From Acorus gramineus (Eukaryota > Streptophyta > Magnoliopsida > Acorales > Acoraceae): 64,000 bases of DNA. The position numbers and the translations under genes are program-made. A model generated the notes under the pieces. That model was not told the origin of the DNA. It made no database searches and saw only the letters and a list, made by a program, of their open reading frames with translations. Shown piece by piece: positions 14,132 through 29,208 of the stretch; positions within the stretch are counted from its first letter, which is position 1, and the number at the start of each line of letters is the position of its first letter. Where the stretch lies: the NCBI GenBank assembly GCA_030737835.1, contig JAUJYN010000026.1, positions 904,131 to 968,130 of the forward strand. The letters are read 5' to 3'.

Positions 14132-14140
14132 TTGTTTAAA
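14132..14140. other. MULE target-site duplication, left
   Basis: TTGTTTAAA here corresponds to TTGTTTAAT at 29200-29208, 8 of 9 bases identical. Nine bases is the usual Mutator-type duplication length. A related uninterrupted site is at 12098-12106. Confidence 0.75.
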
Positions 14141-15130
14141 GGAAAAAATATATATAACCCATGAAAGTTAGCGAATATCTAGATACACCCCTCATTTACT
14201 GAATTTCACAGTTCTTTCTCTTATTTCACTGTTCTTTTCAATAATTACTGTTGCTTCCATTTTTAAATGATAATTGCATGATCATGATTCAACAATATGA
14301 ATTAAAATTTGATAATTTGTTCATAATGATGAAAAAAAGTATATAATTACTTATACCCCATTGAAAGAGACTTGAAAAGCCAGGGGGTTATATGGATTTT
14401 AGACGGTTTATAGGGGGCTATTTAAATTTTTCCAAAATTATATAAAAAAAAAAACAACTGGGGAGGTGAGTGGGCAAACACTTGGTCATGGAACAGTCTT
14501 TAAGATAAAACACTTCCACCACCATCCACCTCTTCCTTCCGCCTCATCCTCCATCACACCACCTTCAAATTCCTCCCCACCACCACGGCACCACCTCCAC
14601 CTCCATATACCCTCTCAAAAAATCCCCCACCATCACCTCTGGCAGACAACTCACCCCCACCCTCCTCTTCCCCTACCCTGACATCTCAAAACCTTCCAAC
14701 CCAACGTCCTCTATCAGGGTCTCATTGGTGGGAAAGGTTGGGTGCACATTTGGGTGAAAGTGATGGGTAGAACCGTAATTTAACAATGTCTGGGTTACTT
14801 AACTACATTATAGTTTAGGTGCGTCTAACCCCACCAGCTATTTTGCTCTCCCCCCCTACTGACTGTTCCCACAACCCACAAATTTTATTATACCTAATCC
14901 CACCACACTCTTTATAACAGGCATTTAAATATCTAATCCCACCCCCACCTCCCTTATTTATCAAAAACTGACTACTCTCTCCTCTCTCCTCTCCGTCTTC
15001 TTCTCTCTGCTCTCCCTCTCGTCCTTTCCCTCTCCTCCTCCTCCTTAGCCGATCTACAAAGTCACCGCCGCTCAATCGGATCCCTCTTTCATCCTCGTAC
15101 ACCGCCGGAGATTCATCAGGAGGAAACGAA
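14141..15130 (+). repeat. Left terminal inverted repeat of the MULE
   Basis: The outer 55 bp and the inner 14795-15130 pair with the right end. Between them about 600 bp (14196-14794, CCACC-rich near 14510-14700) has no counterpart on the right and may be an insertion. The inner part ends in a leader with a possible splice donor (TTGTAG before GTAATC near 15155), which would place the PMD promoter in the TIR. Confidence 0.7.
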
Positions 15131-15822
15131 AATCATCCCTGCAAATCACATTGTAGGTAATCCATCACTCCTACTTCTTGAATCATTTGAATATTAATAT
15201 TATTGCTCAAATCTTGTTTTTAGGGTTTAGGAAAACTAAAATGTGGATTGAAAGATTGGTTATTCCAAAAAAAAGAAACTAGGGTTTTTCATTGGGCACC
15301 TAGGGTTTATGTTTAAATTGGATTGTGTGAGTTTTGGATAGAAACCTAGGGTTTTTCATAGAAACCTTGGGTTTATATTTGAATTGGACTGTGTTTAGGC
15401 TTCATCATGTGATTTCAAAGATTGGTTATTTCAAAAAAATAAAATAAAAAATAAATAAAAATAGGGGGGATTTTGGATGGAACCTATGTTTTTCATAGAA
15501 ACTTAGGGATTGTAATTGAATTGGATTGGTTTTATGTTCAATAATGAAGATGAATTTATATATTTTGTTGTGTTGACAAGACTAATGAATTGAGTGGTGG
15601 TTCATGTCCATTTATAATTCACTAATCTTAAAAAAAAAAAAATTCAATTGATTGAAATTAGAATGATTATGTTGTCACATATGTAGGGCATTACTTTTAT
15701 AATGCTTAAATTTGATTCTTCTTAATAATGAACATTGTTTACCCTTCTAGAATATCATTGTTTTTTTTTTAAATGCTTTTGCTCTATAGTTGAATGCCAA
15801 TGTTCAATCCGCTTTATGCAGG
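15131..15822 (+). other. Leader and intron region upstream of the PMD gene
   Basis: AT-rich sequence holds repeated TAGGGTTT motifs (about 15220-15500) and ends in acceptor-like pyrimidine tracts before TATAG (15789) and GCAG (15821). It is probably the 5' untranslated region and first intron. Confidence 0.45.
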
Positions 15823-17806
15823 ATGGCCTCCAAACAACGCGTCCCTCAAACCGCCTCTCTTCGAAGACGTCAATCTGAAAGGTTGGCTAAAAGCGCACCT
15901 TCAACATCAATTGTCTCACATGCTCAAGAAGAAGAAGTGGAAGATGAAGTAGTAATGTCCGATGAAGAGGGACATGAGGTCGAAGAAGAAGAGAGACAAG
16001 ATATTTTACCAGTTGACTCTGATGTAGATGAGGATAGCATAAGAGGTCCTTTCCTGGTGGGCCTGAGACCAATGAACTCCTCCTGGACTATAGGCATCAT
16101 ATCGCATATCGTGTGTAGAATGACAAGGTATATGTAACATAACAACTACTATTTATGTTAATCTATTATAAAATAAATAAGTTGTTCACTCTTTATCTAT
16201 GTTCCACTTTTTTTAGGGTGACCGATCATTGTGGTGTTGCCAACTGGCCGAGACACTAAATAGCTGAGATTTGGATAAGGAATCCCTAACCTTTACAGAT
16301 CGAATGAATCAAAGTGGGTTGTGGCTGCTGGCAATGTATTGCTTTAAGACCCTTAATAGTCCTTTAATCACTGCAATGGTGGAGCGGTGGCACCTCGAGA
16401 TAAATACCTTCCATTTGCCATTTGAGAAGATGACGATAACTTTAGATGATGTGGCCCAAATAGTCGGCATTCCAGTCATGGGGAAGGCGATAAATGTTTT
16501 GACCTCTTAAACCATTGGCGAAGCGTCAGATTTAGTCAAAGGGTGCCTGAATTTGCCACTTCCAGTGATTATGGATGAGTTGCGAAGGTACAATGGTAAT
16601 GCTGTTAGGTTGGTGTGGCTACGAGATAAGCTTGCTTATAAGTCTGCTGGGAAGTCGGGCGTGCAAATAGATTTTGCTGTTAGAGGTTACTTATTATTTT
16701 TGCTTGGCTGTACGTTATTCAGTGATAAGACCGGGTTCATTGTAATATATACATCGTTAGAAATATTATACATTTCTATGAAATAGTTCATACAATTCAT
16801 TGGAATATGTATATCATATTTTATAAAAGTATATATCTCATTATATGTGGCATGTTTTTTGTTTTAAATCCTTTATCAAAAACCCTTTGCGTAGGTTTGG
16901 GTATATGAGCATCTCCTCTTTTTGAGCCCAGCACCCGACCCTACATACGACGATCAAAGTCCTCAGTCTGATCGGTGGATTCGTAGTCGTAACATACCGG
17001 GGTTGCAAATTTTTTTTGTTGAAGTTATTCGTGAGCTCTCGACATTGCTGCACCTGATCAGGTATCCCTTGTCCAAAGCTTCTCATGTTTTATTTTTTAT
17101 ATTTTTATTTTTTTTTTACCTAAAATCCACATTAACTTGAAACAATACATTACGCAGGTTGATTGGGATCCATATTGATCCGTCCGAGACCATAGACCAC
17201 TCAGCGAGTTTACCTTCTTCAAAGGATGTCTTTGTATAAATTCTATTTTTGAGCCGTACATGCCTGACAGGGTACTCCGACAGTTTGGGCACATTCAGAC
17301 AGTCCCGAGATCACCAATTAGACCACAGAGAGTAGCAAAAAGGAATCGCTCCTCTACCGGCTATAAAGCAGAATATGGTGGTAGTGTGGAACAATTGGAG
17401 CAGTGGCATGATTCCGTCTTAAGTGTGGCTTCAAGGGGAGACATGGTTTATCAATCATGGGATGTAGTTCCAGATTACATCAAATGGTTTGAAAGAATGA
17501 GTCATAGATTCGAACAAAACCCGCATAACAGGAAATTGGCGCAAATGGCCTCTACATCCGATGTTGATACGGTATACTGTTGAATTATCCTTTATTTTCG
17601 GTGTAATTTGATTATACGAATTATTTCTCTTTTTTTATATGGAACTTGTTCATTGGTAGCGTAATGCAAATGCCGTCCAATATCTTGAGTTGCTGCTGGA
17701 TAAGAGGACAACTATCTCTGCCGCTCAATCCACGATCCGTGATGTTATTCATCACTTGAAGGATGGCACGCCACTCCTCGATGCACAAACTGTACAAATG
17801 CGGTGA
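15823..17806 (+). pseudogene. Plant mobile domain (PMD, MAIN-like) gene, decayed
   Basis: Exons inferred from GT-AG borders are 15823-16127, 16217-16741, 16895-17061, 17158-17571 and 17660-17806. The opening MASKQRVPQTASLRRRQSER is followed by an acidic stretch. Exon 2 has the PMD hallmarks NTFHLPFEKMTITLDDVAQ and GIPV; exon 3 has WVYEHL; exon 4 has EPYMPDRVLRQFGHIQ. Breaks are a frameshift near 16050, a stop just before the end of exon 1, stops in exon 2 (near 16257 and 16508) and in exon 4 (near 17237), and loss of the usual exon between WLRDKL and WVYEHL. PMD proteins are known both as host genes (MAIN/MAIL1 silencing factors in Arabidopsis) and inside transposons. Its place, opposite the transposase, suggests an accessory gene. 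Confidence 0.8.
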
Positions 17807-18039
17807 AAGCAAAGACACGATCGACACAGATGACCGAAGAATGATTCAAAGTACAGTCAATCCATGTGCCCCAATCAGAAAATTTCTTTTCTCTTGTTGG
17901 GAAAACTAAAGAATCAATACATGTTTGTGACTGAAGATCTTGTAAAATAGCCTCTCTTGAACTTCTGAACACTGAATGTTTAATGTTATGAATCGTTGAA
18001 TGTTGAAGTGTGATAAATGTACCAGTTATTTATATCTTT
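17807..18039. other. Sequence between PMD end and minisatellite
   Basis: No supported coding sequence is visible. It is probably the 3' untranslated region of the PMD gene. Confidence 0.4.
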
Positions 18040-19170
18040 GTCATAATTGGAGTGTCGACTTCATGTATGTCGAGTGGTTGAAAGCATTATTTAATTCTAT
18101 TAGGAGTGTCGACAGGGTTTCGATCGACATAAACGTCCCAGGTTGACGGGAAGTCTGTCGAGCATGATCACAAGAAATGTCTTTGATTCTGTTTTGTGTA
18201 TCGACGGGGTTTCTGTCGATCGGTATTTCCCAGGTCAACAGAACATCTATTGTGGTGAATGACAACAGTTTTGGTTCTGTTTGGTGAATCGACAAGGCTT
18301 TTGTCAACATATGTAGCCCAGGTCGACAGAAGGTCTGTCGAGGTGAATGACAACATGAGTGGGTTCTGTTTGGTGTATCGACAGGGGTTCTGTCGAGCTA
18401 TATAACCCAGGTCGACAAAAGGTCTGTCGAGCTGAATGTCAGAAATGGGTTGGTTCTGTTTGGTGTATCGACAGGGGTTCTGTCGAGCTATATAACCCAG
18501 GTCGACAAAAGGTCTGTCGAGCCGAATGTCAGAAATGGGTTGGTTCTGTTTGGTGTATCGACAGGGGTTCTGTCGAGCTATATAACCCAGGTCGACAAAA
18601 GGTCTGTCGAGCCGAATGTCAGAAATGGGTTGATTCTGTTTGGTGTATCGACATGGCTTCTGTCGACCTGTACTACCTAGGTCGACAGAAGGTCTGTCGA
18701 GTAGAATGACAACATGAGTGGGTTCTGTTTGGTGTATCGACACGGATACTGTCGATCTATATAACCCAGGTCGACAAAAGGTCTATTGATCCGAATGTCA
18801 GAAATGGGTTGGATCTGTTTGGTGTATCGACAGGGCTTTTGTCGAACTGTACAACCCAGGTCGACAGAAGGTCTGTCGAGCCCACTGGAAGAAATGGGTT
18901 GGTTCTGTTTGGTGTTTCGACAGGGAATCTGTCGATCTATATTTCCCAGGTCGACGGTATGTCTGTCGAAGTAAATGACAGAACATGTTTTTGGTTCTAT
19001 TTGGTGCATCGACAAGGGTTCTGTCGACTGGTATAACCCAGGTTGACAGAAGGTCCGTCGAGCAAAATGTCAGAACATACTTTGATTCTGACAGTTAATT
19101 CGACGGGTGTTTGGTCGACCTGTGTTTCCCAGGTCGACGAAAGACCTGTCGAATGGATTGTCAGGCTCAC
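18040..19170. repeat. About 90-bp minisatellite with paired GTCGA dyads
   Basis: Roughly 12 tandem units are present; consecutive units at 18451 and 18541 are exactly 90 bp apart. Each unit carries two short dyads: CGACAGGGGTTCTGTCG (6-bp arms) and TCGACA...TGTCGA around AAGGTC. The central units are near-identical and the outer ones diverge. Long open frames across the array on both strands arise only because 90 is a multiple of three. Confidence 0.93.
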
Positions 19171-19281
19171 AAATTTTTGCCCCCAAGAATCAGATTCCAT
19201 AATATAACATGAATCTAAACATATCTAGTTGCAAATAAGTGAATTATATACCACAAACCCAGAACATTCAGATTCATTTAC
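19171..19281. other. MULE-internal DNA before solo LTR
   Basis: Short unique sequence. Bases 19277-19281 (TTTAC) form the left target-site duplication of the plus-strand solo LTR and match 25029-25033. Confidence 0.7.
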
Positions 19282-20169
19282 TGTTATATATGTGTCACTT
19301 TTATCCTTCTGGTCACCATTGGAGCATTCTAGCAGTTTTTCAACTTTTTCATTTTTTTCGATCGGAACCGCTAAAATTTTAAACTTTTGGCTGTCACCCT
19401 GAGTTGAGGGCTCCGATTGAAAATCTAACTGCATATTATGTGTCCTGGTACTATTTCAAGCCACTCACGAAAATTTCATCGAATTCCGGTAACGTTTCAG
19501 AATTTCGCAGTTCCGAATCGTATCCAGGTTTTGACCGAGCGAAAAGTCATTGGGAGACTTGACTTGGTCAATGTGGGCCCTTGACTTGGTCAACACTTTT
19601 GTTTTCTTGTGTGGATGGGTTGACCCAAGTCAAAGTGCACCTAAAACTCACCTAAACCTAATTAATTAGGGCTAAGTTAAGTGGGTGTGAGTGTGTGTGG
19701 TGTGTGTGTGAGCATAAATAAATCCCACGACCACAAATAGAGCCTCCCCTATTCATCTTCTTCTCCACTCAAGCTCTCTCTCTCTCCCTCTCTTTAATCC
19801 CCCCTTTGACCTAGTAGAGGTGGTTAAAATCAAAAACCCTAAGAAGAGAAAAGATAGGTGAGGACCCGATCTACCTTCCTATGGTCTTGGATTCGGATTC
19901 CCTCATGTGTGACCCCCTCTCATGGTCTCTTTTCTCCTCAGGTTTCAGCCACTTCAAGGGCTGAAGGAGGGTTTGGTAGTGGTGGCCTTGGTGGTGGTAT
20001 TTCGGTGCGCGAAGAGCACCCGATCTCCTCCCCTTCCTTTCCTCTCCTTGGGTGAGTTTTCTTCCTTTCCTTTCTTGCTTAGATGCATGTATAGGAGGTG
20101 TTTATGGGTGTGCTTGGGGAGCTTGGTGGTTTGGGGGTTGTTGGGGGGCTGTTGGTGGCTAATGGTGGT

Positions 20170-20650
20170 GGTTGAGTTCAGCTCGGGCAGTGCGGGCTCG
20201 CTGGCGCGTGCGCGCAGGCAGGCAAGGCATGCTATCGAGCGAGCTGGCAGGGCACGAGCGCGTGCGCGCGGGCGGTGCGCGGTTGCTGCGCAGGGGGGGC
20301 GCAGTGCGCGCAGGGCGAGCGGGGAGTGCGTGCGGGTACTCCGCTGGGGCGCAGTGCGTGCGGATGCGCGTGCGGGGCACTGTGCTGGGGCGCAGTGCGC
20401 GCGGGTGCATCCGAGGCTGGACGCGCGGTGCTCACGGGCGCGCGCGTGCATGCGCCCGAGCGTGCGGTGTGTCTGGGCGCGCGGGCTGGGCTCTGCAGCG
20501 TGTCTGGGCATGCGGGCAGGGGGCTCGACAGTGCGTCTGGGCGCGCGGGCTGGGGCGCGGCTGTGCGCCTGGGTCGGGTGGCCGTGCGTACGGTTGCCCG
20601 GGGGTTCGGGTGAGTCGGGGTGCTCGGACTCGCGTGCGTACGGGCCGTAT
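20170..20650. repeat. GC- and CpG-rich low-complexity block in solo LTR
   Basis: Dense GCGC/GTGCGCGC sequence is open on both strands because stops are rare. Related blocks sit at the equivalent place in every long Tekay-type LTR here. It does not look protein coding. Confidence 0.85.
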
Positions 20651-21710
20651 GTACGTTTGTCCGAGTGTTGGGTATTTTTTAGCGTATTTTTGTATGTATT
20701 GTGTATTTTACTCACCGAGTTGATTACCCTGTCTTGCAGATCTTGACGGACGGTCACGCGACGACCCGGGTATTGGTGAGTGGGACGATCCAACCCAATA
20801 GGGAGGCGCTATATGCACTTGGCCGTATACTGTCCTCCCCTGGGGTACCATAGTTTAATATTAACTTGTATAATATGTAATCTATGCAAGCATGATTTGT
20901 ATGTAGTATGCATGCCACCCTAGACCTTGTATGTTAGAGACTTGCACCCTTAAGATATGTGTAAGAGCCATGCATCCTGACACCATGTTTCATGCTAGGA
21001 AAGCCTCGACCTATGCATGTGTCCTATTAGTTTAATTTATTAAATTAAATGCAAACTTATGGTATTTTTGCATGCCTTAGTAAATATTATAACCTGGTAG
21101 TTATAATATATGTTCCCCGCATCTTGGTTATGCGCCCTGGAGGAATTCTAAAGAATTCATGACATTAGAGTTGTTGAGATGCGTTGCCGACGGATCCAAG
21201 TGGATCGTATACGTGTGGATAGGCTGTTTCTGTTCCCTTCGTTGGATCCGTATAGAGACTGCCCCAGCGTTAGACAGGCCTTCCTGACAGAGGGCTCCCA
21301 TCAGTAGGCACCTCTTGATTTGGGTTCGGACTGTGCTGAATTGTGGGAGTAGACCAGGCGGCCTACGGAGTGGAGGAGAGACTATCGGTGGACCAAGGGT
21401 GATTAACAGCCTAGTCAGTCCCAATAGCCCATGTCACCTATTGGAGGGTGAGGGTGAGGGTGTGGTGGGTCGGCGATGTAGCGACCCACTGGATTGTGTA
21501 GTTCCTGCCACTTTGAGGCTTTGAATAATTAATTGTGGTTAATATGAATTGTGATGCATGGGTTGTGCTATTCACTGAGCGTGTGGCTCACCCCTCGCAT
21601 GTATATTTTTCTCCAGTGTTATCTGAGTCGGATCAACAGGAGGGGATCCCCGAGGGACTTCAGCAGTAGCAGAGCAGTGCCACATTCCCGCGAGTGTTAG
21701 AGGCTATCAG

Positions 21711-24700
21711 TGTCACGCCCCAGGCGTCCCCGGGACGCGGCAAGTGTATATATATATCAGAATCTACTCAGGAGGTCAATAATATCATACACAAGCAGCC
21801 AAAATGACACACAGACAACAAAAGCAAGGCTGACAGGATATATATACACCAAATGCGGATAACTAAAGACTGAATCTGTAATCAAAATATACTACAGACT
21901 CCATATATAATCACATGTCCTGTGAGAGCCAATATACATACAAAGACATCCAAATACAACACAAACGCGTGCCCAAGCACGGAAAATAATACATACTGGT
22001 ACAAGGGATGCTGATAGTCTCTGCAACTCGCGGGACGTGGCGCTACTCCGCTACTGATGAAGTCCCTCGGGGAGCTCCTCCTCCAGATCCGACTCAGATG
22101 ACACTGTAGAAAATATTGTGCGAGGGGTGAGCCACACGCTCAGTGAACGGCACAACCCATGCATCACAGACAATATTTACCACAATTCCATTATTTATCC
22201 AGTCTCTAAGACATAACAACATGATCCAGTGATTCGTACTTCGCCGAACCACCACACCCTCACCCTCACCCATCAATGGGTGACATAGGTTATTGGGACT
22301 GATAATAATCCATTCACAAATCCAGTAGGTCGCTCATCGCCAACCCACTACACCCTCACCCTCACCCTACCACGGGTGACATAGGATTTTGGGACTGACT
22401 ACACATAACCAGCGGGTCGCTTCCGCCAACCCGCTACACCCTCACCCTCACCCTTCAATGGGTGACATAGGATATTGGGACTAACTGCACCAAAACCAAC
22501 GGGTCGCTTCCGCCAACCCGCTACACCCTCACCCTCACCCTTCAATGGGTGACACCAGGCTCTTGGGACTGACTAGGCTGTTGGTCACCCTTGGTCCACC
22601 GATAGGCTCTCCTCCACTCCGTAGGCCGCCTGGTCTACTCCCACATTCAGCACAGTCCGTCCAAAATCAGGAGGTGCCTACTAATGGGAGCCCTCTGTCA
22701 GGAAGGCCCTGTCTAACGCTGGGGTAGTCTCTACCGGATCCAACGAAGGGAACAGAACAGCCTAACCATCGCATATGATCCACTTGGATCCGCAGACGGT
22801 ACATTATAACAACACTAATGTTCTGAATTCCTCAGAACCCACCAGGGCGCATAACTAAGATGCGGGGAAACATGCATAAGGTTATAATAGGGTGGAATAT
22901 CGTTGGGGAAAGAAACTCGGGAGGGCAGCGTGAGTTCCCGTTATAGGACACTCCGACAACCAAACAAGGAACACGGTGTACCCTAACCCGGGTCTCACCG
23001 CTGTCCTCGCAAGGCCACTCCCCTATAATATTCACTATAACATGCATTGTAAACAAATACTAGCATTTAATCAAATAAATAAACTAGTAGGGCACATGCA
23101 TCGGCCGGGCTTCCTAACATGGAAACAGGGGACATGCTGCATGGCTCATACACATATCCTATGGGTGCAAGTCCCTAACATGCAAAGTCTAGGGTAACAT
23201 GCATTCTACAATTTAATCATGCTCGCATGATATACATATCATTGCAGGTTAATATTTATCCATGACGCCCCAGGAGAGGTCGGTATACGCCCAAATGCGT
23301 ATGACCCCTCTCTACTGGGTTTGGATTGTCCCACTCACCGGGAATCGGGTCGACGCGCGACCATCCGTCGAGATCTGCAAGACAAGGTATTAACTGGTTA
23401 GAATAAATCCACAATTATCCCAAAAATACATGACACACACAAACAAACATCCAACACCCCCCCCCGGCAACCACCGCACGGCCGGCCACCACCCGCACGG
23501 CCACCCGACCGCCCGGACGCGCCGCCGCGCCTCAGCCCGCGCACTCCGCGCACCGCCCGGGGCCCCGCGCGTCCACCGAGCCCAGCCGCGGCAGCCCGCA
23601 CGCGCCCCGCACGCCGTGCGCACGCTCCTCGCCCCGCGCGCGCCCCGCGCACGCCTCGCGCACAGCTCCGCCGCTCCGCCGCGCCCCGCGCACGCCTCGC
23701 GCACAGCTCCTCGCCCCGCGCCTCCTCCGCGCGCGCCCCAGCACCTCCGCCAGCACCTCCGCGCGCACCTCGCGTGTCCAGCACCTCCGCCAGCACCTCC
23801 GCGCGCACCTCGCGCGTCCAGCACGACCAGCCCCACGCACCAGGCCCGCGCACACCCACGCACACGCCGCGCGCACGCACACCCGCGCACGCACGCGCGC
23901 ATGCCCGCGCGCGCCCGGCCTGCGCGCTGCCTGGCCGCTGCTGCTGCTGCCTGCGCCCGAGGACATCTCCCGCCTGCCGAGCACCTCCAACCACCCCTCC
24001 CACTGCCCCAACCACTTCCAACCACCCCCGACCACCCCCCGACGACCCCCACTGCCACCGACCCTCCCCCACACACAAAACCCCTCCCTAGCAATCATCT
24101 AGACAAGAAAAGAGAGGGAAAGAAGCTTACCGAGGGGGAGGAAGGGGCGTCCGGTGGATCTCCACGCGCCGAAACCTTTCCCACAAGCCTTCTCACGCCC
24201 CGATCTATCACGGCCCTTGATTTGGCTCGAAACAGAGGAGAGAGAGGGGAGGTCGGGGAGGCTAGGATCGTCGGAATTCGAATTTGAAGACACCGGAGCG
24301 TAGATCGGGACCCGATCTACACTTCCCGTGCTTTAGGTTTTTGGTTTTGAGGGGTGTAAGGGGCTCGAACGGAAGAAAATCGGAGGAGAGGAGAGAGAGA
24401 GCAGGTCGGGAAGATGATGAATAGTGCCGAGATATTTTTGATTCCTTTTAAGTAGAGCGCGACTTAAAAACCCGGATACGCCCCGGAACTGCGAAATTTT
24501 TGCAAACGATGCCAGAATTCGATAAAATTTTTATGAGTGGCTTAAAATGGCACCAGGACACCAAATATGCAGTTAGATCTTCAATCGGAGTCCTCTAGCT
24601 CAGAAGATAGCTAACAGTCTGAAATTATGCGGTTCCGATCGAAAAACCCTAAAAATTTTAAAACTGCCAGAAATGCTCCAACGGTTACCAGCAGGCTAAA

Positions 24701-24718
24701 AGTGACACATATATAACA
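21711..24718 (-). repeat. Minus-strand solo LTR nested in the plus-strand solo LTR
   Basis: It reads TGTCACGCCCCAGGCG at the left and CACATATATAACA at the right. ATCAG flanks it at 21706-21710 and 24719-24723, and removing it rejoins the host LTR cleanly. It is 3008 bp long. The GC-rich block is at 23460-23960. Unlike the host LTR it lacks the W-box cluster, so it belongs to a different subfamily. Confidence 0.92.
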
Positions 24719-25028
24719 ATCAGCATCCCTTTTTTATTGTATGTATTGTATTCTGTGCTTGGGCACCCGTTTGTATTATATTTGGATGTCGTTGTATATA
24801 TTGGCTCTCACAGGACAATTGATTATGTATCGAGTCTGTAATGTGTCTTTGAATTACAGACTCAGTCTTTTAGCTTCCGCTATTTGTGTATATATCATGT
24901 CAGCCCTGCTTTTGTCTGTGTTGTTATTGTTGATGTTGTTTAGGGTATATTATTGACCTCCTGTTTAGATTGCTGATATCATATATACACTTGCCGCGTC
25001 CCGGGGACGGCCGCCCTGGGGCGTGACA

Positions 25029-25215
25029 TTTACACTTTACAAAATCAGTCACATTATATGACATTTAGGCTATCTATACAAAATGAGTCACACTATGTGA
25101 CTTTACACTGTCTATACAAAATGAGTCACATTATATGACATGTAGGTTGTCTATACAAAATAAGTCACACTATATGACCTTTACGATGTCTATATAATCA
25201 GTAAAATATTCTGTG
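25029..25215. repeat. About 53-bp tandem repeat with GTCACATTATATGAC palindromes
   Basis: Four degenerate units carry TCTATACAAAATGAGTCACA and the near-palindrome GTCACATTATATGAC. It lies between the solo LTR and the transposase stop codon, within MULE sequence. Confidence 0.8.
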
Positions 25216-25339
25216 ACCTTCATAGAGTAGTTTACCAAAATGGAAGGCCAGCCTAGTCAATATCAACAACATCGGCCATTGCTATGTCAGTCCCTGCTAG
25301 AGCTTTGAATCGATCAATTCTTTCACTATATGGCGTTAC

Positions 25340-28152
25340 TCATGCACTTGCCACGTCAAGACGAAACCGATCCCATGATCTTGCCGCAGGAGGCAACGGA
25401 GCATCTGGTGTGAAATCCAAACCAACGAAGTGACATCCATTTACATAACCAATTGGTAGGATTCGGTGGGCACTAATTGGAGGTGGAGGATCTCTTAGTG
25501 TGAAGAATGTCAGACATTGATGTTTTGAAATATGTACAACCACAATTTTGTAACAGGAGGCAATCACAAATCCCATGTCAGGCATAGACATCCAATGCTC
25601 TCTATCGGCAACTGAAGATTGACAACGCAGAGTCCTCTTCACCTCATCCACACGATCCAACCCATAGAACACCCTTGCATACTGTTCTTCGTGTTGCTCG
25701 ATCTCAAACAGGAGATCATTCCTAACATCCCTCCAACCATCGTTTGACATGCCCAAAAAGGATGCAATCACCCGAAATCCACAATGACCATCCCCGATAA
25801 CGTCATATACGTTTCTTATGAATGGGGATAGGAAAGGGGGGAATTCAGCAATGTATTTCTCGCTTTCGATGTTTCGATTCCGGAGAACCCTTCCCCTTTG
25901 CACTGCCATCTTCGGTCGTATGGTATCAGGGTTCAATTGTGAGCCCTTCTCGCTAATAACTGTATCAACTTTCTTTGATTTCTCAATTGACTGAAGAACA
26001 TACTCAAAACCACTTGGAGATCTTTTGGTTGATTCTTCTATTAATGCTTTTGCTCTTTGCTTTCCATTTTTCTTCCGGCCTCTTGTGTTCACCTTAGCAG
26101 TTGGCTCTAAAAGGAGCGTGGCAGATGGATCACTCAATTTTTTCAAATATTTTTTAATCTCTTTTTGTTGGACAATGTTCCCATGAGTGAATCGTTTGAG
26201 GAGCATCTCAATTTCTGGGCCGATGTCAACCGAGTCGGTGAAGTCATCAATGAATGGAGTTATCCCAAGCTTTCGCCAAAATGGGTGAATTGCAGCAACG
26301 GGTATTGATCTACCTTCTTGCTTGTATTCACCAATCATATGGGCGCACGGTAGTCCACAAGTTGTATACACTGCATGATCACAAATTGTGCTATCTGGGC
26401 CAACTCCATCACTCGCCTGTATCTCGTTCTGTAGCTTCTGAAGGGAATATATAGAGACTACGCCCACAAGGTCCTGGTACAGACACCCTCGATACCTGTG
26501 AGGGATTTTTGTTAGGCTCTCCTCGAAGGAGGCCCTTATATCAGAAAATTGCAACTCCAAGAGATTATGGATGGTTCGCCAGGAGCTCACGAAATTGTGA
26601 ACCGATGTTTGCAAATGTCTCTTCAGCTTAGCATGGTGACTCTCTACGCGATTTGTAGATGTGTTACCAAGGTGCATATGTCTGTCAATCCATGCAGAGA
26701 CAAACCTTTCACGATGCTTATCCAACCAAGTTGCTTTCAAGTATGAAATCACTTTTGGATAACCAATGAATTCATTCTCTAGGCGTTGCAATTTTCTACA
26801 GAAATCAACCTCTGTCATTGCCTTCATCACTTCAGCCCATGCCCCCATAAATCTGTTCCATGTTTCTACGTCTTCAAACGATTTTCTACAGTTTTTCACC
26901 ACATTCTTTTCTATGTGCACACGACAAAGGAGGTTCACAGTCGATGGAAATACCACAGATATAGCATTCATTAGACCGACCTCATGATCTGTTATGATTA
27001 CCTTTGGGGAGGGGGATCCATCGAAGAGTGATTTGAAGCACTCCATCGCCCATGTGTAATTCTCTTCTTTCTCTGCCCGCAAATATACAAACGCAGCAGC
27101 AAATGTCCTCCCCGTCGAAGTCACTCCCACTATCTCTAAGAGTGGTAACCTGTATCTGTTGGTCTTGTAAGTAGCATCCATCATAAACACAAGAGGGAAT
27201 GCTCTCACTAGTTGAATGGAAGTGGGATGCACAAAAAAGATCTCTGACACAACCTCATCTTCATCTTCCACTCGATGTCGTTCAATATAACCATGCTCAT
27301 AAATCAACTTCATCAGCTGTTGCATCTGTGTACGCCCACATGTTTCTCGAAGTCGTAATTTTGTTCGTGCGTTATATACATTCTTTATTGAACTGACATT
27401 GGTGGGATCTCTATTCTTCAAGTGCGTTAGAATATCGCGAGGACGCATGCCGCTCACTGACATTCCCTCTAGCACAGTGTATTCCTCCTCTAGAAGCTTC
27501 CCAGCAAATGAGTGGCCCTCGAAGTTGACGATGAGGGAATGATTGTGTATACCACATAGAACTCTCAACGACCATCTCTCTGAGTGTTCAATAGCACGTA
27601 GCTTGAATAGACAACCACACTTCTTCGTACCGGTTCGACGCTTCTTTATATCCTTCTTCTTGACGTCCTTTTTTCTTGGTTTACCGTCGTATTCCCCTCC
27701 TCTCTCACATATTAGATCCACTCGTGCTGATCTACGAGGGTTTGAGGTTTCCGACCGGCCAATTACTACTATGACACCAATGTTTCTACCAACACGTTTG
27801 ACCCAATCAATTAGTTCAGCTCGGGTGTCAAAGACCTGAAAGAATGATAATATCCGTTACATTCATGTCACCTCCCATATTATATGGCTACACATTTCAT
27901 CATAACATGTTACCAAGGAAGTGGAGTCATCGTTAACATTACCAAGGGTGTGGAGAAATGCTCGGTGGTGTCAATGTTGGTGATCGCATCATTGGACATG
28001 GCCTCCATCGTGTTGGGGATGGACTCCTCGGCATCTTCAACAAATGGTATTAGATACTTCTGAAAACACAATAAACATGTCATTATTTTTTTGAATTATG
28101 AGTCTATGACGAATATATCTACGGAAGCATAAAGACTAACCTCTTTATTCAT
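25340..28152 (-). CDS. MULE transposase fused to OTU-like cysteine protease
   Basis: Model of three coding exons: 28141-28152 (starts ATGAATAAAGAG), 27943-28059 and 25340-27835, with GT-AG introns of 81 and 107 bp and phase 0 joins, giving 874 residues. Order: FDTRAELIDWVKRVG lead-in and FAR1/WRKY-GCM1-type zinc region (about 44-150; CGCLFKL, GIHNH); MULE DDE core with Asp263 (MDATYK), Asp326 (ITDHE), CRVH at 347-350 and Glu441 (NRVESHH); a SWIM-like finger ending CGLPCAH near 536-542; a basic linker; and an OTU domain (about 715-855) with Asp725-Gly-His-Cys728 and His845 (GCHFV). It should bind the TIRs and cut DNA in the nucleus; the OTU part would cleave ubiquitin-like modifiers. No internal stops. 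After the TGA the frame stays open for 28 codons, so the stop may be recent. Confidence 0.85.
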
Positions 28153-28744
28153 ACTTCAAAGCACTTGTGGTGGTTCTACAAATCAACGGTTGACCATAGC
28201 TCTATCATTTCAATACCTGTGTGAATATTTGATTGATAAACAAATTAACATGAATGGTATGTAAAGGCACAATGACACATGTTTAATGAATATAACTATG
28301 ACCAAACACCACCAATACCCCTATAAATGCCACCTACAACACCATGACCACTATCCCATCGAACATCACCATCCAATACTACCGCAAACCACCAAACCAC
28401 AACCATCCCAACCAATACATGGCATATCATCCAAACCACACATATGGCATATCACTCAAACAAACTATAAAACCACACATATCCATGGCCATCAACACTA
28501 TCATAATCACCACCAATCACGTATAAATGTCCTACACAATGACATACAAATAGAACCACCTCTAACACCATCACTACTACCATAACCCTAAACCCTTAAA
28601 ATACAAACATGACCATTGCAACAAAAATCTCAACAATCACCACCCATGCCACCATATCCACAAGAAAACACAAACAAATTTAAAAAAAAATCAAACAATG
28701 AAGAATGGATACTCACCAAAGTGATTCTTTCAAGTTAGAGCATC
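28153..28744 (-). other. Transposase leader and CCA-rich spacer
   Basis: Read on the minus strand, a leader in the right TIR has a possible splice donor (CTTTGGTGAGTAT near 28720) and an acceptor-like CACAG near 28218, just before the exon containing the start codon. Between them lies CCA/ACC-rich low-complexity DNA (28285-28690). No gene is seen in this interval. Confidence 0.45.
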
Positions 28745-29199
28745 TATTTGCACTCGTGAGAATCAATGAGGATCGTTGGGAAGGTCTTCGGGGTGTCACC
28801 GGAGGAAGTACACTGCCCGGCCGGGATGTCGATGGCGGACGTTGCGGTCGACGGTAGATAAATGGGCGGGGAGAGAGAGGGCATGTGTTTGGGGGTTTTA
28901 TTTGGATTCAGTTGGTGGGGATGGCATTCACACATTTTTGAGTTGGTGGGGAGGGGTTGATTGGTGGGGTTAATGATAAAAAAGAGAAAACACATGTTAT
29001 GCTTTATTATTTGGGTGGTTGGGGGGAAGATCAAAATGGCTAGTGGGGTTAGAGGCACCCATTATAGTTTAGGGGTGTTAACGGCAGAGGTCTACATCGA
29101 TTTTAGGGAAACCTTAGGTGGTTTATATCAATTTTCATAAAAAAGAGAGGTGTATCTGGGTATCAGGAAACTTTCACGGTGGGTATATACAATTTTACC
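28745..29199 (-). repeat. Right terminal inverted repeat of the MULE
   Basis: The reverse complement aligns with 14141-14195 (GATACCCAGATACACC against ATATCTAGATACACCCC) and with 14795-15130 (TCTAACCCCA landmarks and the CGCCGG region). It carries the 5' leader of the transposase gene. Confidence 0.75.
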
Positions 29200-29208
29200 T
29201 TGTTTAAT
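29200..29208. other. MULE target-site duplication, right
   Basis: TTGTTTAAT matches TTGTTTAAA at 14132-14140 except for the last base. Confidence 0.75.

Follow-up and report, generated by a model that had tools for sequence, protein, structure and literature searches.

The question raised by this locus is whether a Mutator-like element (MULE) of Acorus gramineus couples two genes in one mobile unit, a transposase with an OTU protease-fold tail and a convergent plant mobile domain (PMD) gene, and whether their partnership could counter silencing. The locus lies in a 64,000-nucleotide stretch of contig JAUJYN010000026.1 (positions 904,131 to 968,130 of the forward strand, assembly GCA_030737835.1), hereafter the window, in which the original prediction had drawn a single 15-kb MULE with both genes. 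In this study, we show that an OTU-tailed MULE transposase and a convergent PMD gene of its own share one pair of inverted repeats as a mobile unit and occur as a pair in at least six subfamilies, and that a tandem array of dyad-symmetric sites lies between the two genes in every subfamily sampled (six). That the element in the window is a degenerate member of a MULE family with two genes and its own silencing-escape system appears to us an evenly balanced proposition. A more specific proposal, that the OTU-tailed MULE lineage encodes a VANC-like anti-silencing system in which a PMD dimer would act on the dyad arrays and protein and sites would co-diverge by subfamily, falls somewhat short of an even chance and is put forward tentatively.

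The element was delimited through its copies in the assembly (398.6 Mb, 137 contigs). The alignment of two near-identical copies, A on C7 and B on C1, with the window begins at 14818 and breaks off at about 29060; L063 is a fourth complete copy. In all four, the window included, both genes lie between one pair of ends, as expected if they are coupled in one element, and a MULE-type duplication of 8-11 bp stands outside the inverted repeats (TTTTAAAA in copy A, 8/8; TAAATACAT in copy B, 9/9; TAATAGGAT in L063, 9/9). The ends of copies A and B read GGGTGC(C/G)TCTAAC..., the left end in the window having one G fewer, and the right terminus GGGTGC(C/G)TCTAACCCCAC is common to nine copies (the window counted), each with different flanks. 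Seventeen genomic copies of the right end (28900-29060), again counting the window, match at 91% or more. The anatomy and gene coupling of the element are shown, and the features of the window are collected in Table 1.

Table 1. Features of the window, in window coordinates
Feature	Position	Strand	Remarks
PMD/OTU MULE proper	14818..29060		14.2 kb, including the 5.7-kb later insert; supported by collinearity with copies A and B, termini and target-site duplication
Target-site duplication, left copy	14807..14817		ATTATAGTTTA; same 11 bp at 29061-29071
Target-site duplication, right copy	29061..29071		ATTATAGTTTA; 11/11 with left copy
Left terminal inverted repeat block	14818..14859	+	86% match with right end (42 bp)
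Right terminal inverted repeat block	29018..29060	-	inverted match of left end
PMD gene	15823..17583	+	four predicted exons; borders by inspection of copy A
Tandem array, 90-bp units	18095..19166		14 exact TCGACA-N7-TGTCGA dyads (18323-19009)
Short tandem repeat, 39-bp unit	25038..25194		4 copies; shared with A, B and L063
Transposase-OTU open reading frame	25343..27856	-	838 codons; open over 867 codons in copies A and B
MULE (DDE) domain	26903..27190	-	residues 223-318; PF10551, E 9.1e-25, 87.4 bits (cut-off 27.6)
OTU protease-fold domain	25343..25867	-	about residues 664-838; predicted structure, DGHCG at residue 689
Nested insert	19282..25026		5745 bp; outside the system; a later insertion, absent from copies A and B
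Outer element, left part	14141..14817		insertion target, unrelated and itself mosaic; left end as originally predicted
Outer element, right part	29072..29199		right end as originally predicted

Domain searches placed the two genes on the expected strands, the PF10551 match on the minus strand and PF10536 matches on plus-strand exons (E 5.6e-15 and 4.8e-9, one exon piece reaching 55.8 bits against a cut-off of 34.9). The minus-strand transposase had been described as spliced, which is not shown by its open reading frame, a single 838-codon frame in the window. The OTU tail stands as a predicted fold, in a structure model built from the copy A sequence, but without a Pfam match, since neither the window protein nor any of 8 homologues gave a PF02338 hit at E 1. 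GHCG and CHF motifs occur in copy A and in 8/8 further Acorus OTU sequences recovered (10 were sought), and the OTU cysteine is nearly invariant across 26 aligned sequences. The N-terminus of the transposase is of FAR1/AFT type, weak in the window, where it falls below threshold (FAR1 23.6 bits, cut-off 28.1; AFT 18.8 bits, cut-off 21.6), and clear in homologues, of which P0007 exceeds both cut-offs. The window's own PMD gene is broken: its first exon is frame-shifted, the second contains stop codons, and about 670 bp are lost after 16737.

The coupling extends well beyond these copies. A PMD place was found within 20 kb of 47 of 54 transposase places, in all 47 cases downstream and convergent, in agreement with the convergent pair predicted for the window. 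This count used 54 of 56 transposase matches (two short C-terminal pieces beside counted places were dropped) and 110 of 151 PMD matches (most of those dropped had an identity of about 35-40%, and a few were short pieces at 44-75%). The transposase of L063 is absent from the transposase list though L063 DNA aligns across that region, so that the transposase and PMD lists are lower bounds. By coordinates, 12 of the 17 near-identical right ends have a PMD place; those at C4:20994336, C5:17679493 and C10:19761037 have none, nor do two further ones, one near a contig start and one adjoining unreadable sequence. As a control, 56 other PMD places, hand-picked from low-identity and unpaired rows, were compared with the 150 best MULE-domain places, and none lay within 20 kb. 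Among 120 proteins listed in a PMD protein search, none also bears a MULE domain. A union of separate families by nesting, the outcome that the original prediction had named as its refutation, was ruled out by the convergent pairs together with pairing across six subfamilies. Many further PMD genes, about 35-40% identical and several with long open frames, are also present in the genome; the divergent ones checked lie near no listed MULE domain and are perhaps retrotransposon PMDs.

The divergence of the two genes was also compared. Twenty-two pairs sort into six clearly distinct subfamilies, with PMD and transposase always assigned alike, and their distances correlate with r 0.92 (0/5000 permutations), as they do among seven representatives (r 0.815, 11/5000 permutations). 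There is one discordance in how subfamilies join, L020/L023 (C52), whose PMD groups with the window's subfamily and whose transposase groups with the L028/L037 clade; judged from these groupings, it likely reflects an exchange between families.

The window's array is the only one there with a period of at least 60 bp and at least five copies; its dyad, TCGACA-N7-TGTCGA, occurs nowhere else in the 64 kb, and the array is also present in copies A, B and L063. One copy of each of five further subfamilies was sampled, the L078 and L079 pieces being cut where an array was expected, and an array occupies the equivalent position in all five: L075 (88 bp x 13), L076 (240 bp x 6), L077 (91 bp x 15), L078 (124 bp x 8.7) and L079 (122 bp x 7.9). 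The half-sites differ, with TCGACA in the window's subfamily, TAGACA in L077, TTCGAC in L078, TCGAC in L076, CGAC in L075 and TGAC, the weakest, in L079. Their 4-letter cores nevertheless concentrate at one gap, 9 bp in five subfamilies (18, 16, 20, 15 and 23 occurrences) and 8 bp in one (22), versus 0-3 at every other gap from 3 to 15. Dyad centres alternate at about 34/56 bp in the window, 34/57 bp in L077 and 33/55 bp in L075, although the units differ. The shuffle control preserved composition only within 10-bp blocks, and the repeats of one array are not independent of each other; the dyad evidence rests on gap specificity and on the several arrays; in L075, the shuffle test was weak at half-site length 5 (7 versus a shuffle maximum of 6), and the signal lies at length 4. 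The shorter 39-bp repeat of the window, which adjoins the transposase stop, contains GTCA-N7-TGAC in its unit.

The predicted PMD fold is that of VANC21, and its sole confident match among solved structures is a DNA-bound anti-silencing protein, which lends some model-based support to the anti-silencing role originally suggested for the pair. In the mechanism that we propose, the transposase would move the element, and the PMD protein would bind the dyads in the array of its own family, thereby opening or demethylating that family's copies; half-sites and PMD would diverge together, limiting the effect to self. The OTU domain would probably trim ubiquitin-like marks from the transposase complex or from nearby chromatin proteins, the least supported part of the proposal. 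We infer the VANC-like mechanism on well-motivated grounds, and a deubiquitinase-like role of the OTU domain in the element by inference only.

It is possible, though in our view unlikely, that the arrays are instead binding sites for the transposase or a host factor, such as internal or transposition enhancers, and that the PMD protein is some other accessory, for example a dominant-negative mimic of MAIN/MAIL1. The PMD proteins MAIN and MAIL1 act in silencing, according to the part of Ikeda et al. (2017; PMC5418596) available to us, the transposase family has a FAR1/AFT-type N-terminus, and the dyad occurs at many places without a listed PMD. However, each end region of copies A and B, the expected place of transposase binding, has no dyad and at most one half-site, and their transposase gene has none, which argues against transposase binding sites; the modelled PMD fold, with its match to a DNA-bound anti-silencing protein, also speaks against this explanation.

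Still less probable is an ordinary MULE with a captured host PMD as cargo and with arrays that are ordinary satellite-like repeats. Gene capture is frequent in MULEs, Ikeda et al. infer genic capture of PMD-C in the accessible part of their paper (PMC5418596), and repeats with a period of at least 60 bp and at least three copies were present in 5 of 8 control loci of other MULEs (3.3 kb each), which also counts against our reading of the arrays. Against cargo, however, PMD exon 2 has a median dN/dS of 0.12 (17 pairs with usable dS), the same as the transposase (0.12, 59 pairs) and close to the OTU region (0.10, 38 pairs); the PMD gene is intact in 8/11 other copies examined and is kept across six subfamilies. 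Within the young subfamily, pN/pS is 0.39 for the PMD (p 0.003) and 0.15 for the transposase. The array units, moreover, differ in sequence but have a common dyad geometry, whereas the commonest dyads in the six control loci checked were mostly AT-type, with one GATACA-N4 in L005. A functionless PMD cargo was rejected on the strength of the dN/dS of about 0.12 and the intact copies.

Several further observations weigh against the silencing-escape system that we favor. Seven of the 54 transposase places have no listed PMD, most pairs between families approach saturation in dS, and L079 has half-sites of 4 letters only. The PMD model was built from an A. calamus homologue, 52% identical, and not from the element's own protein, and a PMD profile searched against PDB chains, VANC21 included, gave no match at E 1. 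As regards the OTU tail, DG-x-C is present in 14 of 18 database relatives searched, indicating that some have lost the OTU cysteine, and the histidine was recovered by a narrow pattern in 6 of 18. Finally, among the dyad places listed (C1, 1.34-16.51 Mb), none lies within 20 kb of a listed PMD or transposase. The dyad TCGACA-N7-TGTCGA occurs 1488 times genome-wide versus 4 for a reversed control pattern, and with those listed lying away from both genes, the site is not private to the PMD/OTU MULE family. A pattern of neighboring dyads occurs 609 times versus 27 in the control; of the 50 such places listed, which cover C1 and C2 up to 2.8 Mb, 19 make up three runs of at least five, each run flanked by a PMD place on one side and a transposase place on the other (C1:21.991-21.992, C1:22.049-22.050 and C2:1.383-1.384 Mb), and the remaining 31 are single or paired and scattered. 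Some of the genome-wide dyads have the 56/34 spacing (e.g., C1:10048409-10048517).

It had been suggested that the pairing may be undescribed. The association of PMD with MULEs is already known, but a combination of OTU and PMD in one MULE was not found in the literature searched. In the available parts of Dupeyron et al. (2019; PMC6446971, Table 1), several plant MULE groups are listed as having a PMD, often antisense, in most of their members; groups 42 and 45-50 likewise have a MULE transposase, 9-bp-class duplications, inverted repeats and a PMD open reading frame. No OTU is listed there for any plant group and dyad arrays are not mentioned, and the FAR1-type groups 35/36 are listed without PMD, unlike the present family, which has an OTU tail, arrays and, clear only in homologues, a FAR1/AFT-type N-terminus. 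Ikeda et al. (2017; PMC5418596) described MULE-borne PMDs and PMD capture by MULEs and speculated on anti-silencing; their PMD-C MULEs of grasses and Amborella, as far as the text seen goes, have the PMD fused to the transposase, unlike the stand-alone, convergent PMD gene of the present family. Arabidopsis VANDAL21/Hiun, from the sections available (PMC5735166, PMC10398659), is likewise a MULE with an accessory protein, whose fold, that of VANC21, is the one predicted here, and with noncoding tandem arrays of short motifs that have diverged between families. It differs in its motif, YAGTATTAY versus dyads with GAC-gap-GTC cores, no sequence similarity was found between VANC21 and PMD, and anti-silencing is putative in our family. 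Ubiquitin-family proteases also occur in MULEs such as Kaonashi and others, as Ulp1 in its own gene or in VANC according to the portion seen (PMC13317346), in contrast to an OTU as transposase tail. OTU domains are found in the cnidarian MuDR-6_HM (Dupeyron et al., 2019, Table 1; PMC6446971) and in OTU-bearing Helentrons (PMC6431247), which are animal or fungal and for which PMD is not mentioned in the parts available, whereas the present element is from a plant and has a PMD. As far as the literature searched goes, what is new is the OTU tail together with a convergent PMD on a FAR1/AFT-type transposase, the arrays of dyads, and the fold link between PMD and VANC21; the last may already have been noted in the paper behind PDB 9lnj.

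PMD is common to host silencing factors and transposons. If the transposon PMD does bind its own array, then MAIN/MAIL1, transposon PMDs and VANC would be tied into one class of DNA readers with several natural specificities. If the VANC-like proposal holds, PMD (host MAIN/MAIL1 included) and VANC would belong to a single, ancient class of silencing regulators that bind DNA and serve transposons and hosts alike in their conflict, and further such systems would be marked by the 1488 genome-wide dyads.

The original picture of one 15-kb MULE running from 14141 to 29199, for which an 8/9 duplication (TTGTTTAAA at 14132-14140 and TTGTTTAAT at 29200-29208) and similar diverged inverted ends (44/59 alignment columns) had been put forward, is practically untenable, since both signals exist but belong to another element, copies A and B terminate at 14818 and about 29060, the true duplication in the window is ATTATAGTTTA, and the relatives of the outer ends lie away from the listed PMD-MULE right ends. 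The outer pieces represent an independent family, a small element unrelated to the PMD/OTU MULE. Sixteen other relatives of its right end were found at 72-81%, none of them, by coordinates, near any of 40 listed PMD-MULE right ends. The window flanks joined at the duplication match two unoccupied loci unbroken (79% over 221 and 76% over 229 alignment columns), and the boundaries 14141-29199 are refuted by these unoccupied relatives of the outer element. Within its left part, 14374-14433 is the end of a common short repeat (about 80-92%, more than 30 places). The junctions of the nested insert fit TG..CA ends with a 5-bp duplication, TTTAC, and the insert is composed of several inverted-repeat arms and very GC-rich open reading frames.

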